Source: Pseudomonadota bacterium
Lineage (GTDB): Bacteria > Pseudomonadota > Gammaproteobacteria > JAADHS01
Direction of reading: 5' to 3'
Length of the DNA: 33,124 nt
Assembly: GCA_021821045.1 (NCBI GenBank)
Contig: JAKACW010000052.1
Location: forward strand, 1-33,124
A program made the position numbers and the translations under genes. How positions within the stretch are numbered: the stretch's first letter is position 1; each line of letters begins with the position of its first letter. Below are positions 7,806 through 13,414 of this stretch, piece after piece. The notes under the pieces were generated by a model. That model did not search any database, was not told the DNA's origin, and was given only the letters and a program-made list of their open reading frames with translations.

Positions 7806-8264
7806 TTAGTCTTTATCCGTCAGCGGTGAACGCAAAGGCTGATCGGGCGTTTCAGGCTCACCGGAAAGATTGCCTCTCGGCGCGTTCCGTTCCTGGTTTA
7901 GAATGGTGTCGCTGTTGGCTTCCGCGAACTGGGCATACTCCTCCATGTTCACTTTCTGATCGCCGTTTACATCGACTCTTTTGAAGTCCGCAATCAACTG
8001 GATCTGGCCTCTCGCCTCTGACATGGAAATGGTTCCGTCATCGTCGGCATCCAGACGTTTGAAGCCCATGCGAATCGTTTCCGTGTCCTTACCGCTTTCT
8101 GAAGAGGCGGCGTCCCCCGGCGACAACTGTTGCTCCTGCAATTGATTGACCGACGAGCCCTCGCTTGATCCCGCTGGTGCGCCTGTCTCGGCAAGTGCGG
8201 TGGCTGAAAACAAAGACAGGACAATCGCGCCTGACAGTGCGGTTAACGTGTTTTTGGCGTACAT
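7806..8264 (-). CDS. Secreted EF-hand calcium-binding protein
   Basis: This 152-residue protein has a signal peptide (1-25, cleavage after ALA) and a low-complexity Ser/Gly/Gln stretch (26-60). Two EF-hand loops follow. Loop 1 at 72-83 (DADDDGTISMSE) is canonical. Loop 2 at 98-109 (DVNGDQKVNMEE) has Gln in place of the usual Gly at position 6. It should bind Ca2+ in the periplasm, as a buffer or sensor. The ATG at 8264 was chosen because AAGGAG lies 9 bases upstream and the signal peptide starts there. The frame stays open upstream but without hydrophobic character. A perfect sigma-54 promoter lies 111 bases upstream, next to a sigma-54 activator gene, so it is very likely a target of that regulator. 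The physiological role is unknown. Confidence 0.88.
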   Translation of the reverse strand: MYAKNTLTALSGAIVLSLFSATALAETGAPAGSSEGSSVNQLQEQQLSPGDAASSESGKDTETIRMGFKRLDADDDGTISMSEARGQIQLIADFKRVDVNGDQKVNMEEYAQFAEANSDTILNQERNAPRGNLSGEPETPDQPLRSPLTDKD

Positions 8265-8374: not shown

Positions 8375-8390
8375 TGCAATTGCAGTGCCA
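8375..8390 (-). promoter_or_regulatory. Sigma-54 (-24/-12) promoter of the EF-hand gene
   Basis: Read on the minus strand this is TGGCACTGCAATTGCA, a perfect match to TGGCAC-N5-TTGCA. The start point would be near 8363, giving a leader of about 100 bases before the ATG at 8264. A weaker copy (TGGCACAGTTCGCGCA) lies at 8583-8568. It also forms a GGCAC/GTGCC inverted repeat and could instead be an activator site. Confidence 0.85.
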
Positions 8391-8599: not shown

Positions 8600-10000
8600 T
8601 CAAACTGCGGCCGCATCGGGGCCAAGGCGATACTTCTTGATGCGGTAGCGTATGGTTTCCCGTGTGGTTCGCAGGGCGGCAGCGGTCGCCGCGACATTAC
8701 CCTTCTTGCGCTTGAGCATCTCCGCGATGATATGCCGCTCGACGTCCTCCAGCCCCATGGAGCCATCAAGCGGTATCAACATTGAATCGTCATTGATCCT
8801 GGCAGCGCTCGGCGTGTCGTTGTTCGCGGGTCTGAGTTGCAGCCATTTCGTCGACACCGCACCGTTGTCGGAGAACAGCAACATGCGCTCCAACACGTTG
8901 CGAAGTTCGCGCACATTTCCCGGCCAGTCGTAACTTTGGAGCTGAGCCCAGACATCCGATGGAATGTCGGCGACAATTATTCCAGTCTGTTTGGCCAACC
9001 CCGCCAAGATGTCGGTGACGAGCGGCTTCAAATCGTCTACGCGGGTGCGCAAGGGAGGCAAAGCCAGGTTAAACACATTCAAGCGATGATACAGATCTTC
9101 CCTAAACTCACCGGCCTCGATCGCTTTGACCAAGTCTCGATTCGTCGCCGCAACGATCTGAACGTCGACCTTGACTTCCTTCTCGCCACCCAAGCGACGG
9201 ATACTTCGATCCTCCAGAGCCTTGAGCAGCTTTGCTTGCAGACCGACGGGCATTTCCCCGATTTCATCCAGGAACAGCGTTCCTCCGTTCGCCTGCTCGA
9301 TCAATCCGCGGCGGCGCCCCTTCGCGTCCGTGAAGGCGCCCGCTTCGTGTCCGAAAAGTTCCGATTCCAATAAGTCCTTGGGTAAAGCGGCACAGTTCAA
9401 TTCGATCAACGGGCCTTCGCTGCGAGGCCCGCTGTAGTGAAGGATGCGGGTGACCAACCCCTTGCCCGTCCCGCTTTCGCCGCTAATGATGAGCGCGCTC
9501 AAGGGGATGTCCGCCAAACGCGACAGCGTCTCGCGAACTTGGGTTGCCGCTTCGCTCCGTCCGACAAACGCCTCGATTCGGTATTTGACCGCTTCGGTGC
9601 GCGACTGGTCCGAAAGTGTACGCTGAGCTAAGGCACTGCGTCGTGCGCTCGTGACAATGACATCGAGGCGCTCCCGCTCGCAAGGTTTCTCGAGAAAGTC
9701 ATAGGCTCCCAACTGAATGGCGCGAACGGACTCGGGCACGCCGCCATAGCCGGTTAGAAAGATCCACTCTCCGTGAATCTTCCGTTTGCGCACGGCTTCC
9801 AACAGATCAAGACTGTTGCCGTCCGGCAGGTTCATATCCGCGATAACAACCAGAGGCGCGAGCCCGTCCTCGAACAGCAGCTTGCGCGCGGACGCCAGGT
9901 CCGACGAAACCGTCACGTCCCATTCCTGCCGGCTGAAGTGACGTTTCAGTTCATTTCCGAACAACGGCTCGTCTTCAATTATCAGCATCGATTCATTCAT
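8600..10000 (-). CDS. Sigma-54-dependent response regulator (NtrC family)
   Basis: This 466-residue activator drives sigma-54 promoters. REC (1-120) has Asp55 as phospho-acceptor and LEKP at 103-106. The AAA+ domain (about 144-375) has Walker A GESGTGKG at 174-181, Walker B GGTLFLDEIGEMP at 239-251, the sigma-54 contact loop GAFTDA at 221-226 (a known variant of GAFTGA), and WPGNVREL at 359-366. A Fis-type helix-turn-helix closes the protein at about 432-457. The ATG at 10000 overlaps the kinase stop by 8 bases (ATGAATGA), so the pair is translationally coupled. The layout resembles GlrR/QseF- and ZraR-type regulators, but orthology cannot be assigned. Several nearby -24/-12 promoters are its probable targets. 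Confidence 0.93.
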   Translation of the reverse strand: MNESMLIIEDEPLFGNELKRHFSRQEWDVTVSSDLASARKLLFEDGLAPLVVIADMNLPDGNSLDLLEAVRKRKIHGEWIFLTGYGGVPESVRAIQLGAYDFLEKPCERERLDVIVTSARRSALAQRTLSDQSRTEAVKYRIEAFVGRSEAATQVRETLSRLADIPLSALIISGESGTGKGLVTRILHYSGPRSEGPLIELNCAALPKDLLESELFGHEAGAFTDAKGRRRGLIEQANGGTLFLDEIGEMPVGLQAKLLKALEDRSIRRLGGEKEVKVDVQIVAATNRDLVKAIEAGEFREDLYHRLNVFNLALPPLRTRVDDLKPLVTDILAGLAKQTGIIVADIPSDVWAQLQSYDWPGNVRELRNVLERMLLFSDNGAVSTKWLQLRPANNDTPSAARINDDSMLIPLDGSMGLEDVERHIIAEMLKRKKGNVAATAAALRTTRETIRYRIKKYRLGPDAAAV

Positions 10001-11444
10001 GACCCGTACACTTCTCCGTTGGAAAGATGATCGTCACGATTCCACCGCCGTGTTCGCCATTAGCCAGCCTCACCGTCCCGTCCTGACTCTGCGCAAAGCG
10101 TCGCACCGTGGCGAGGCCTAAACCCGTACCATCACCACGCTGGCTATTGTACGGTCTGATACCGTTGCGCAACAGATCTTCCGGAAACCCCGGTCCGGAG
10201 TCGTGAACGGAAATGGACAGTGCGCTGTCGTCGCAGCGCGCGTCAACAACGATTTCGCCGGGCTTTCTTCCGATCGCACCGGCGGAATTGAGCAGCAAAT
10301 TTAAAATTGCCTGGCGAAGTCCTGACTCGGGCAAGCGCGCTGTGATATGGTCTGCAATGTCGACACGTATGACGATGTCCTCGGGGATCTGGTAACGCGC
10401 CAACTGAACAAGGGACTCGATACAGGTTCTCAACTTCACAAGCGCGATCTTCTCTGGCCTCATTTTCGCGTCAGCCAAAAAGTTATTCAGCAGACGCTTG
10501 ACCCGATCAAGCTCATTGACTACCAACTCGACGCGCTCGATCAGCTCGGGCTCTTTCAGATCGTCCCTGAGCGACGCCAGGGCCATGGCCATCCCCGCCA
10601 ACGGATTGCGAATCTCGTGCGCGATGCTCGCGCTCAGCTCACCCGCCGCGGCTTGCTGCTGCGCGCGAGACAGTTCAATGTGTTGCTCCAGCAGCGCCCG
10701 GCTGGCGCTGCGCACTTCCGAAGCCAGGGCGTTTTGACGGCTTCGATTGACAGCCTCGTGTTCGGCAAGGCTGCTGACCATCGCATTATATTGGGTAACC
10801 AGCGGCTGCAGCAGGGTGTCCACGGAATCGTCCGAGAACGATGCGTATTCTCTGCGTTCGATTTTTTGCAAAAACTCGCGAAGGCTTTTCAGGGGGCGAA
10901 GGATGCGCCCTTTCAACAACCACACAAGGGAGGCTACCGCGATGGCGAGGCAGATCACGAGCACAACAGACACGCGAAACAGCCAGGCAGACCTATCCTG
11001 AAGCTCTTTTAGTAACTTTGTACGAAAGACAATCTCGGCTTCAAGCGCGCGCCGCAAGTGAAGCACGCCTTCCTCGATGACCGCCTCGCTTATTTCGCCC
11101 TCGCGTTGCGCTAGAGAAAGTTTCCATTGGGCAACCCAAAAAAGACTGTCCGCATCCGGCGTGATACCGAAGTCCTCTTTCCGTTGGGTGAGGTCATTGA
11201 CCGCGGCGATCAAATCTTCCAAAGGTTGCCGTATGTCGCGCAAGGTTGCGGGCGTCTCATCGCCGACCATGCGTTCGTCTAACGTATCGATTGCTTTATC
11301 AACCGCGGAGGAACTGGCGAGATAGCCGTGAATCGGTGTGAGCGCCGCCGCCAAATACCACGCAATGACAACCAACGCGACCGTCGCCACGCTGGCGGCA
11401 ACGATCAATGCGACGCTGATTTTGATCCAGGATCGGAATATCAA
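9993..11444 (-). CDS. Membrane sensor histidine kinase, partner of the sigma-54 regulator
   Basis: This protein has about 483 residues. TM1 is at about 10-35 and a largely helical periplasmic sensor at 36-154. TM2 is at about 155-177, then HAMP, then a HisKA domain with SIAHEIRNPLAG (His276). HATPase_c has an N-box (LNLLLNSAGA), DSGPGF and GTGLGLA. I chose the TTG at 11444 because GAGGG lies about 9 bases upstream and TM1 follows at once. The same frame is open to a TTG at 11510, but that stretch has no ribosome binding site and contains a sigma-54 promoter, whose transcript would begin downstream of that TTG. The kinase stop overlaps the regulator start. The periplasmic signal is unknown, and envelope stress is a reasonable guess. 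Confidence 0.88.
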   Translation of the reverse strand: MIFRSWIKISVALIVAASVATVALVVIAWYLAAALTPIHGYLASSSAVDKAIDTLDERMVGDETPATLRDIRQPLEDLIAAVNDLTQRKEDFGITPDADSLFWVAQWKLSLAQREGEISEAVIEEGVLHLRRALEAEIVFRTKLLKELQDRSAWLFRVSVVLVICLAIAVASLVWLLKGRILRPLKSLREFLQKIERREYASFSDDSVDTLLQPLVTQYNAMVSSLAEHEAVNRSRQNALASEVRSASRALLEQHIELSRAQQQAAAGELSASIAHEIRNPLAGMAMALASLRDDLKEPELIERVELVVNELDRVKRLLNNFLADAKMRPEKIALVKLRTCIESLVQLARYQIPEDIVIRVDIADHITARLPESGLRQAILNLLLNSAGAIGRKPGEIVVDARCDDSALSISVHDSGPGFPEDLLRNGIRPYNSQRGDGTGLGLATVRRFAQSQDGTVRLANGEHGGGIVTIIFPTEKCTGHE

Positions 11445-11493
11445 AGTCTTGCTGCCCTCTTCAGTAGTCGAACGCCAGTGCGTTACAACCAGA

Positions 11494-11509
11494 AGCGAGT
11501 ATTGTGCCA
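11494..11509 (-). promoter_or_regulatory. Sigma-54 promoter of the kinase-regulator operon
   Basis: Minus strand TGGCACAATACTCGCT: a full -24 TGGCAC, correct 10-base GG-to-GC spacing, and a single mismatch in the -12 element (TCGCT for TTGCT). The start point near 11482 gives a leader of about 40 bases to the TTG at 11444. Sigma-54 control of an operon that encodes a sigma-54 activator implies positive autoregulation. Confidence 0.7.
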
Positions 11510-11560
11510 AAAAGAAAAGTTGTTGATTGTTTTAAATAAAGGATGTTCACTAAAAAGAAA

Positions 11561-11600
11561 GTGGGTGTTTTGCCCCACTGGGACGCGCATTTTCACCCAC
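11561..11600. promoter_or_regulatory. Nested inverted repeats upstream of the kinase promoter
   Basis: GTGGG (11561-11565) pairs with CCCAC (11574-11578), and GTGGGTG (11561-11567) also pairs with CACCCAC (11594-11600). The region lies about 50-90 bases upstream of the -24 element of the kinase operon, where activator sites normally sit. It is a candidate enhancer. The rest of the 11511-11769 gap shows no gene. Confidence 0.3.
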
Positions 11601-11694
11601 ACGACGGCGCAACAACCACGCTTTTGACGGCGCGCAAACCGATAGGGTATTTCACATGGCGAAGAATTCGGGCGGGCGCATGGCGTCTCGAAGG

Positions 11695-11725
11695 GCCGGG
11701 AGAAGTCGGCGAGACATCTCCCGGC
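11695..11725 (-). terminator. Hairpin downstream of the DUF2892 gene
   Basis: GCCGGGAGA (11695-11703) and TCTCCCGGC (11717-11725) form a perfect 9-bp stem with a 13-base loop, 45 bases past the DUF2892 stop on the minus strand. No T-tract follows. It may be a terminator or part of a transcribed leader or small RNA. Confidence 0.4.
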
Positions 11726-11769
11726 GTTTAAACGTTCAACTCCGTCGCCGGTTTCGCGCGGGCGGGTTC

Positions 11770-12144
11770 CTATGCGAAACCCGGCTGGGCGACCGCGTGA
11801 TAACGCCGCTCTTCGCGGCGTAGCGCATCGCGCAGCTGAGCGTATTGGTCGGCCGCCATCGGATTGGTATCGATATCGAACAGATCATAGAGCGGTTCCC
11901 AGCCGAGAAAGGCCGTCATTGTGGGATAGATCCCCAGTAACGGCACCACCGACCACCACTCGAGCGGTCCTCCCAGGGTCACGCTTTCCGGGCTGACGAA
12001 GTAGGCGGAAATAATCATCGCCAGACCTGCGACGAGGCGGATAACCCTATCGAGGTAGCCCACATTTCGATACGAATCGATTTTCAGCAGCGCCTCATGC
12101 GTGACGATAGCGTCGAGTGTCTTGGATGTCATGTGTTCTGTCAT
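11770..12144 (-). CDS. DUF2892 inner-membrane protein
   Basis: This 124-residue protein contains the DUF2892 (YgaP membrane-domain) signature. NVGYLDRVIRLVAG leads into TM1 (about 34-51). TM2 (about 64-81) ends in the typical GW-PLYDLF turn. A short charged tail faces the cytoplasm. Family members are small two-helix membrane proteins, often next to rhodaneses. Their function is poorly defined, and the usual Cys of the GWCPLY motif is Glu here (GWEPLY). The ATG at 12144 has an AAAGGAG site. A sigma-54 promoter lies 56-71 bases upstream, which places the gene in the local RpoN group together with the 29-residue peptide gene just upstream on the same strand. Confidence 0.85.
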   Translation of the reverse strand: MTEHMTSKTLDAIVTHEALLKIDSYRNVGYLDRVIRLVAGLAMIISAYFVSPESVTLGGPLEWWSVVPLLGIYPTMTAFLGWEPLYDLFDIDTNPMAADQYAQLRDALRREERRYHAVAQPGFA

Positions 12145-12199
12145 AACTTCTCCTTTCGCATTTTCGAGTGTGATTGACTCTTTGCTTGGTAACGCTGTT

Positions 12200-12215
12200 T
12201 GCATTAAACGTACCA
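12200..12215 (-). promoter_or_regulatory. Sigma-54 promoter of the DUF2892 gene
   Basis: Minus strand TGGTACGTTTAATGCA, with GG and GC ten bases apart and two departures from TGGCACG-N4-TTGCA. The start point near 12189 gives a leader of about 45 bases. It sits between the 29-residue peptide gene and the DUF2892 gene. Confidence 0.65.
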
Positions 12216-12235
12216 GGCGCCGCATTCACCTCGCG

Positions 12236-12325
12236 TCAAAGAACCAGGAAGAACAAAACACCGTAGAGCAACGCCAGAAGCGTTACATCATCCCAAATTG
12301 TTCTCTTGATCTCGTTGGTCTTCAT
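12236..12325 (-). CDS. 29-residue single-helix membrane peptide
   Basis: A short frame of 29 codons encodes MKTNEIKRTIWDD followed by a hydrophobic helix (residues about 14-29, rich in Leu, Val and Phe) and a TGA stop. The basic N-terminus and Leu/Phe-rich end suit a single-pass inner-membrane peptide with its N-terminus inside. An AAGGAG ribosome binding site lies 8 bases before the ATG at 12325. A sigma-54-like element lies about 50 bases upstream. It is too short for most gene callers. No family was recognised. Its place between sigma-54 promoters and beside a DUF2892 gene suggests an envelope-stress peptide, which is inference. Confidence 0.6.
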   Translation of the reverse strand: MKTNEIKRTIWDDVTLLALLYGVLFFLVL

Positions 12326-12371
12326 CGCACGACTCCTTCTTCTGTTCAACCTCGCCACCTAGCGTTCGCGT

Positions 12372-12387
12372 TGCAAAACCAAGGCCT
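12372..12387 (-). promoter_or_regulatory. Possible sigma-54 promoter of the 29-residue peptide gene
   Basis: Minus strand AGGCCTTGGTTTTGCA: a perfect -12 TTGCA and correct spacing, but a weaker -24 element (AGGCCT). The start point near 12362 gives a leader of about 37 bases to the ATG at 12325. It is the weakest of the five but is correctly placed. Confidence 0.45.
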
Positions 12388-12563
12388 GCCTCGAAAACAG
12401 CATTCATCACAGAATGTTATTGACGTTCGAGCTGAAGCGTCGACGAGACTCTGGGGATATTTCACACACCGATGGTTCGCAGGGCACGTTGCCGCGGCGC
12501 GCCGGCGCCGATGAAAGCACCACACCGCATCGACGATATGAAAACAAGCAATGCACGAATGGG

Positions 12564-12579
12564 AACCACCGTGGTGGTT
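12564..12579. promoter_or_regulatory. 16-bp palindrome, candidate shared activator site
   Basis: AACCACC-GT-GGTGGTT is a palindrome with 7-base arms and a 2-base centre. It stands 105 bases before the sigma-54 promoter of the PRC-barrel gene (plus strand) and 177 bases before the one of the 29-residue peptide (minus strand). Both distances are typical for NtrC-type enhancers, so one site could serve both directions. No other feature was recognised in the 12388-12684 gap. Confidence 0.4.
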
Positions 12580-12684
12580 GTTTTCCACAACTCACCGGTC
12601 CGGGGATGTGTGGCACTCGCCCAATAGACGCCTCCGTTTGCAGATTTGGTTCCGTGCAGCAGCAAATCGCGTTCGTCGACGTCT

Positions 12685-12700
12685 TGGCATGAGACCTGCA
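12685..12700 (+). promoter_or_regulatory. Sigma-54 promoter of the PRC-barrel gene
   Basis: TGGCATGAGACCTGCA: GG and GC are ten bases apart, with single departures in each element (TGGCAT, CTGCA). The start point near 12711 gives a leader of about 60 bases to the ATG at 12773. Confidence 0.65.
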
Positions 12701-12772
12701 ACGGATCACCGTGACGTTCAGCGCAACGCAAAAGCGCGAAACTGGAAATCACAATCACCGAGGAGAGTAACG

Positions 12773-13414
12773 ATGAACACGATCACTAAGCGAGTAGATG
12801 TATCGACGGTCGCTCTTTTTGCGAGCGCTTTGGCGTTAGCCAATCCGACTCTCGCGGCCGAGCAGGACACGCCGACTGCGAGCGATACGATTACATTGTC
12901 TGCAGGACCCGCGGGCAGCGCTGATCCCACGACCCGTACCGACAACGCGCCGCAAGCGCCAAACTTGAACGCGCCCGGCGAAGCTGCGTCCGGATTCGAG
13001 AATCAAACGCCAAACCCGGATGATCCGCAACGCCCGGGCATGGCCGCGACAAAGCCAATGGCGGTGGACTCCAATCAGCTGGTTTCCTCCTACCAACAGC
13101 TCAAGACCGGCGGCGCTCTGCGCGGAGGCGCCATCATTGGCAAGAAGATTGTCGGCGCAAACGGAGAGGACATCGGCAAGGTCGCAGAGATCGCGGTTTC
13201 GCCGGACGGAGGCATCTCCAATGTCGTCGTATCGGTCGGCGGTTTTATGGGCGTAGGCGACCGCTTGGTAGTGCTCCCATGGGAAGCGTTGGAAATTTCC
13301 CCCTCCAATGACACCATCAAGGCCTACGTAACCAAGTCGGAAATCGCCCAAGCACCGTTGTTCGACGAGATTTCCGATAGCGGAATGCAGCTTGAACTGG
13401 AGGAGCCGAAGTAA
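12773..13414 (+). CDS. Secreted PRC-barrel domain protein
   Basis: This 213-residue protein has a signal peptide (1-29, cleavage near TLAA-E) and a disordered Pro/Asn/Thr-rich linker (30-100). A PRC-barrel domain follows at about 117-195 (GKKIVGANGEDIGKVAEIAV, then VLPWEAL). PRC barrels bind other proteins or RNA in many settings. Secreted versions are common in stress-induced envelope proteins of Proteobacteria but have no defined activity. The ATG at 12773 has a GAGGAGAG site at 12760-12767. A sigma-54 promoter lies 73-88 bases upstream, and the gene is divergent from the 29-residue peptide and DUF2892 genes. It probably belongs to the same RpoN response. A strong hairpin follows the stop. 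Confidence 0.88.
   Translation: MNTITKRVDVSTVALFASALALANPTLAAEQDTPTASDTITLSAGPAGSADPTTRTDNAPQAPNLNAPGEAASGFENQTPNPDDPQRPGMAATKPMAVDSNQLVSSYQQLKTGGALRGGAIIGKKIVGANGEDIGKVAEIAVSPDGGISNVVVSVGGFMGVGDRLVVLPWEALEISPSNDTIKAYVTKSEIAQAPLFDEISDSGMQLELEEPK

Follow-up and report, generated by a model that had tools for sequence, protein, structure and literature searches.

A candidate single-helix membrane peptide gene beside a YgaP-like gene in a sigma-54-associated cluster

The window analyzed here, a stretch of DNA of 33,124 nucleotides, contains a group of envelope genes near a sigma-54 activator (Table 1). On the minus strand a frame of 29 codons is followed, in order, by genes for a protein with a YgaP-like transmembrane domain (YgaP-TM; the next gene on that strand, 91 bases after the small frame), a histidine kinase, a sigma-54-activating response regulator and an EF-hand protein, and a PRC-barrel protein gene is transcribed divergently. 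The first-pass annotation had placed the small frame in an RpoN cluster, and its position near the activator and histidine kinase pair agrees with this. Our literature search did not find sigma54, PRC-barrel, EF-hand and histidine kinase proteins described together; one publication reportedly mentions DUF2892 together with RpoN. Elsewhere in the window, a minus-strand frame of 394 aa (157-1341) ends in a long Lys/Ala-rich tail that is histone H1-like, and its start is one that we take to resemble adenylate kinase.

Table 1. Coordinates of the small frame, its neighbours and the associated signals in the window.
Feature	Coordinates	Strand	Basis or remark
29-codon frame, single-helix membrane peptide candidate	12236..12325	minus	translation, hydropathy, structure model; TGA included
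Ribosome-binding site AAGGAG	12333..12338	minus	7 bases ahead of peptide ATG
Good sigma-54-like site TGGTACGTTTAATGCA	12200..12215	minus	rank 4; between peptide stop and YgaP-TM
Weak sigma-54-like site AGGCCTTGGTTTTGCA	12372..12387	minus	rank 46, score 7.7; rough matrix
YgaP-like transmembrane-domain protein (YgaP-TM), 124 aa	11770..12144	minus	PF11127, E 6.3e-14; AAGGAG before start
Histidine kinase	9993..11444	minus	start TTG 11444 inferred; sigma-54-like site 11509-11494
Sigma-54-activating response regulator	8600..10000	minus	domain searches
EF-hand protein	7806..8264	minus	consensus sigma-54 site 8390-8375
PRC-barrel protein, divergent from peptide	12773..13414	plus	sigma-54-like site 12685-12700

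The 90 bases of the small frame, read on the minus strand from 12325 to 12236, consist of an ATG, 28 codons and a TGA, and translate to MKTNEIKRTIWDDVTLLALLYGVLFFLVL. Both the short frame and the good AAGGAG site reported for it are real. A GTG at 12358 gives an alternative reading of 40 aa that encloses the frame, but the scan found no strong ribosome site for it, and the ATG at 12325 is therefore the likely start. The peptide begins with the head MKTNEIKR, continues through W-D-D, and ends in 16 uncharged residues that run to the C-terminus. The basic head attributed to it holds for MKTNEIKR itself, where K2, E5, K7 and R8 give a net +2, and not for the peptide as a whole, in which D12 and D13 come next and the side-chain charges sum to about zero. 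The single hydrophobic helix was recovered, with a best 15-residue Kyte-Doolittle mean of 2.69; AlphaFold2, run on the single sequence of the enclosing 40-residue frame, likewise predicts one helix at a mean pLDDT of 84.3, with block means of 93 and 96 for the last two ten-residue blocks, which are the peptide's final 20 residues. At 29 codons the peptide lies within the size of small membrane proteins (about 50 residues or fewer), and hydropathy and the structure model together predict a single membrane helix that leaves few residues outside.

The pairing of ribosome site and helix is rare by chance. The pattern sought was an ATG frame of 20-60 aa that combines a strong ribosome site with a hydropathy mean of at least 2.5. 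Among 3000 first-order Markov simulations of the 628-base intergenic region none contains it (1.9% have the ribosome site alone and 0.5% the helix alone), and neither does any of 60 Markov simulations of the full window, although these rates flatter the peptide because the thresholds were set after the frame had been seen and the frame had itself been picked out by the first-pass annotation. The peptide is the sole such frame in the real window, even with ATG, GTG and TTG starts and a threshold of 2.0. A comparison set of 133 other loci (641,007 bases, with some overlap and many loci mostly coding) has 28 small frames with a ribosome site, one of which reaches 2.0 (at 2.15) and none 2.5.

Exact AAGGAG motifs 5-8 bases before an ATG occur six times in the window, four of them ahead of frames of 124-187 aa, one ahead of a frame that runs off the edge after 8 codons, and one ahead of the peptide. 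Across the genome to which the window belongs AAGGAG-N7-ATG is found 59 times, compared with 16 in a reversed control. Thirty of the 59 loci were taken, and 21 of these start frames of at least 62 aa and nine shorter ones; the motif alone has false positives, since seven of the nine short frames are not hydrophobic or are very short. The remaining two of the nine are hydrophobic like the peptide, one of 37 aa (2.70; L142, 1514 on the plus strand) and one of 41 aa (2.53; L158, 1514 of the minus-strand reading). Neither has a Pfam match, and each may be a small membrane gene or a chance frame. Subject to these two similar frames, the ribosome site and helix of the peptide together exceed chance.

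The transcription signals are less favorable to what had been claimed, namely a sigma-54-like element upstream and stress induction through RpoN. A scan of about 66,000 window positions, using an approximate matrix, places its four best sites at 8390 and 11509 (both minus), 12685 (plus) and 12215 (minus). They precede the starts of the EF-hand protein, the kinase (start inferred), the PRC protein and YgaP-TM by 126, 65, 88 and 71 bases, respectively. These sites speak by their placing and not by their number, because a looser pattern is found no more often than in shuffles (18 versus 17.6 expected) and the consensus pattern is no commoner in the genome than in a reversed control (6 matches versus 7); within 350 bases of each of the six genomic matches there is a frame of 133-408 aa that has a ribosome site. 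Since it is located between the peptide stop and YgaP-TM, the site at 12215 would serve YgaP-TM and not the peptide. The good nearby element is thus downstream of the peptide, and upstream there are only weak ones, AGGCCTTGGTTTTGCA (rank 46) and a second at 12654 (score 7.9, rank 42), 329 bases from the ATG. The former, 62 bases before the ATG at the usual spacing, is the one candidate promoter in a suitable position that the scan gave for the peptide, and the chance of a site as good within a 75-base stretch is about 0.05. Upstream of the peptide the search gave no sigma-70-like promoter; the one such site between 11400 and 12900 is at 12132-12104 on the minus strand. Nor was a terminator-like site found between the peptide and YgaP-TM. 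With these signals, induction of the peptide by RpoN is no more than possible; the regulation as claimed, in its strong form, is not borne out, the neighbours having good sigma-54 sites and the peptide none.

The position of the 12215 site also bears on the chief rival explanation, that there is no gene here and that the frame has arisen by chance in regulatory DNA upstream of the YgaP-TM promoter. Sigma-54 activators usually bind 80-200 bases upstream of a promoter, and as the site at 12215-12200 faces YgaP-TM the frame overlaps just this enhancer position. A chance frame would also fit the lack of any homologue found in the 143, 369 and 398 overlapping genomes searched, as well as a synonymous codon score of -0.8, which separates poorly (6.6% of 289 real-gene pieces score lower and 12% of nulls higher). 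It does not readily account for the rare conjunction of ribosome site and helix, and a comparison of the four promoter-upstream regions, made without a significance test, gave no convincing shared motif. We consider a chance frame unlikely, and the other two alternatives less likely still.

One of these is that the frame is a leader that tunes YgaP-TM expression rather than making a working peptide. It is on the same strand 91 bases ahead of YgaP-TM with no terminator-like site between, which speaks for a leader; but the good sigma-54 promoter would start YgaP-TM transcripts after the frame, and because of that position such transcripts would not contain it. The hydrophobic run moreover exceeds what a leader needs, and we think a leader improbable.

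The second alternative is a toxin like those of type I systems, which are short and hydrophobic, depolarize the membrane and are kept silent by an antisense RNA. Toxic small proteins of the inner membrane are known, reportedly including TimP, and the candidate would resemble them as a short hydrophobic peptide of that membrane, its length and one helix being about right for a toxin. It differs from them in that neither an antisense RNA nor a promoter for one is evident here: with E up to 1, Rfam matches neither strand of 11500-12800, and the only sigma-70-like site in the 11400-12900 interval is not antisense over the frame, although an RNA of an undescribed kind may exist. The near-neutral charge and the single copy in the genome also argue against a toxin, to which we give little credence.

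The peptide occurs as a single copy in its own genome, namely itself. A search against relatives had been proposed as a check on the gene, and it returned no convincing match in three overlapping sets: seven weak others among 143 relatives at E<=1 (best E 0.086), 20 among 369 genomes of the class at E<=0.5 (best E 0.086), and three among 398 genomes of the phylum at E<=0.2 (best E 0.054). The weak matches are mostly inside longer frames, and those at L006, L038, L040, L043, L044, L047 and L052, aligned and compared by eye, were rejected as chance, as they come without the peptide's neighbours or start region. There was also no match in the same-family genomes G001 and G002 (E<=1), in plasmids and phages (E<=10), or in Pfam, NCBIfam, PHROGs and PDB sequences. 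Within these searches the peptide is found in this genome only. Ribosome site, helix and the rarity of the two together support the proposal of a small membrane peptide gene without proving it, as the searches yielded no homologue on which selection on the frame could be tested.

Relatives of some neighbouring genes are more widespread. YgaP-TM relatives are present in 19 of 143 genomes (its own included) at E<=1e-5, and none of four YgaP-TM paralogues taken from the peptide's own genome has a similar small frame beside it. Among 37 loci a single foreign frame, in L034, exceeded a score of 40 against the peptide; it scored 43, had no ribosome site in the scan and was set aside as chance. The PRC protein has no match in G001 or G002 at E<=1e-5, and a kinase scan of genome contigs gave only three distant matches of 22-25% identity. 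Response-regulator relatives at E<=1e-90 occur in 34 of 340 class genomes, and in 15 of the 340 (own genome excluded) the match is of 54-63% identity. G002 has a kinase and regulator pair at 30% and 56% identity, respectively, with no EF-hand, YgaP-TM or PRC gene nearby. The response-regulator relative in G002 (G002:C283:6567-7730; L108, L078), a genome of the same family, contains one in-frame TAG.

Sixteen regulator neighbourhoods were examined (15 and in addition that of G002), and a kinase match is present in 14 of them, while EF-hand, YgaP-TM and PRC proteins are present in none. Small peptide-like frames were absent from these neighbourhoods under the stricter criteria; looser criteria gave three (L126, L078 and L129), of which those at L126 and L078 are inside longer frames. 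In this sampling the peptide-bearing cluster is known from one genome only. Several sigma-54-like sites were seen in passing. L128 (-9070) and L139 (-2411) have one about 90 bases before the kinase frame, which suggests self-regulation as in the window. Others precede frames in the relatives' regulator neighbourhoods L131 (+1531), L133 (+1300) and L127 (+3188), and one in the peptide's own genome (L090) similarly lies ahead of a frame; these four frames resemble cytochrome bd subunits.

The reading that we prefer, with a probability of about 0.5 for the whole, is that of a genuine small gene for a single-helix membrane peptide acting on a larger membrane protein. Translation from the ATG at 12325 by way of the AAGGAG site is likely, and would give a 29-residue product whose short polar head leads into a hydrophobic helix at the C-terminus, ending at the last residue. 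If made, the peptide very probably inserts into the inner membrane, probably with its head inside. As the helix is C-terminal and of such a size, with no catalytic part, the peptide would most likely pack against a larger membrane protein and alter its stability or activity, and the likeliest partner, albeit a tentative one, is YgaP-TM, encoded next on the same strand. The two may share a transcript that begins at an upstream promoter, in which case the internal sigma-54 promoter would raise YgaP-TM expression under stress; alternatively, the peptide may have its own weak sigma-54 promoter. A bolder and rather unlikely version is that of a lineage-specific micro-protein that arose in a sigma-54 envelope-stress cluster as a one-helix subunit or regulator of YgaP-TM or the nearby histidine kinase, in which one weak sigma-54 promoter for the peptide and a second behind it would shift the ratio of peptide to partner when the activator fires.

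Single-helix proteins of fewer than 50 residues are easily missed, and few have been linked to a regulatory circuit. Should the peptide be made and act on YgaP-TM, it would provide a function for a membrane protein family named only by its domain, and would itself exemplify a young small gene within a sigma-54 cluster; if untranslated, it would show that an enhancer region can resemble a small gene.

Two kinds of known small proteins invite comparison. CydX, CydY and CydZ, small subunits whose genes accompany those of cytochrome bd oxidase, are single-helix proteins of poorly conserved sequence encoded next to the membrane protein that they serve (PMC4325964). The candidate is like them in its size, its predicted single helix and its place beside a membrane protein gene; it is unlike them in that its same-strand neighbour is YgaP-TM and that it matches no Pfam family, and the scan of five neighbours revealed no cydAB domains. 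Packing against a second membrane protein is described as a mode of action for CydX and its analogues (PMC4325964) and for small membrane proteins generally (PMC12719787). Escherichia coli YohP, which is widely conserved in gammaproteobacteria, has 27 aa, is oriented mainly N-out/C-in and dimerizes through a glycine motif (PMC12719787). The peptide differs from YohP in its polar N-terminal head and in the lack of any relative in the searches, and resembles it in general features, namely length, one hydrophobic helix and little sequence predicted to lie outside the membrane. As a candidate it is well formed, yet it stands alone; nothing in it lies outside the known kinds, and it is probably a small membrane protein of this general type.
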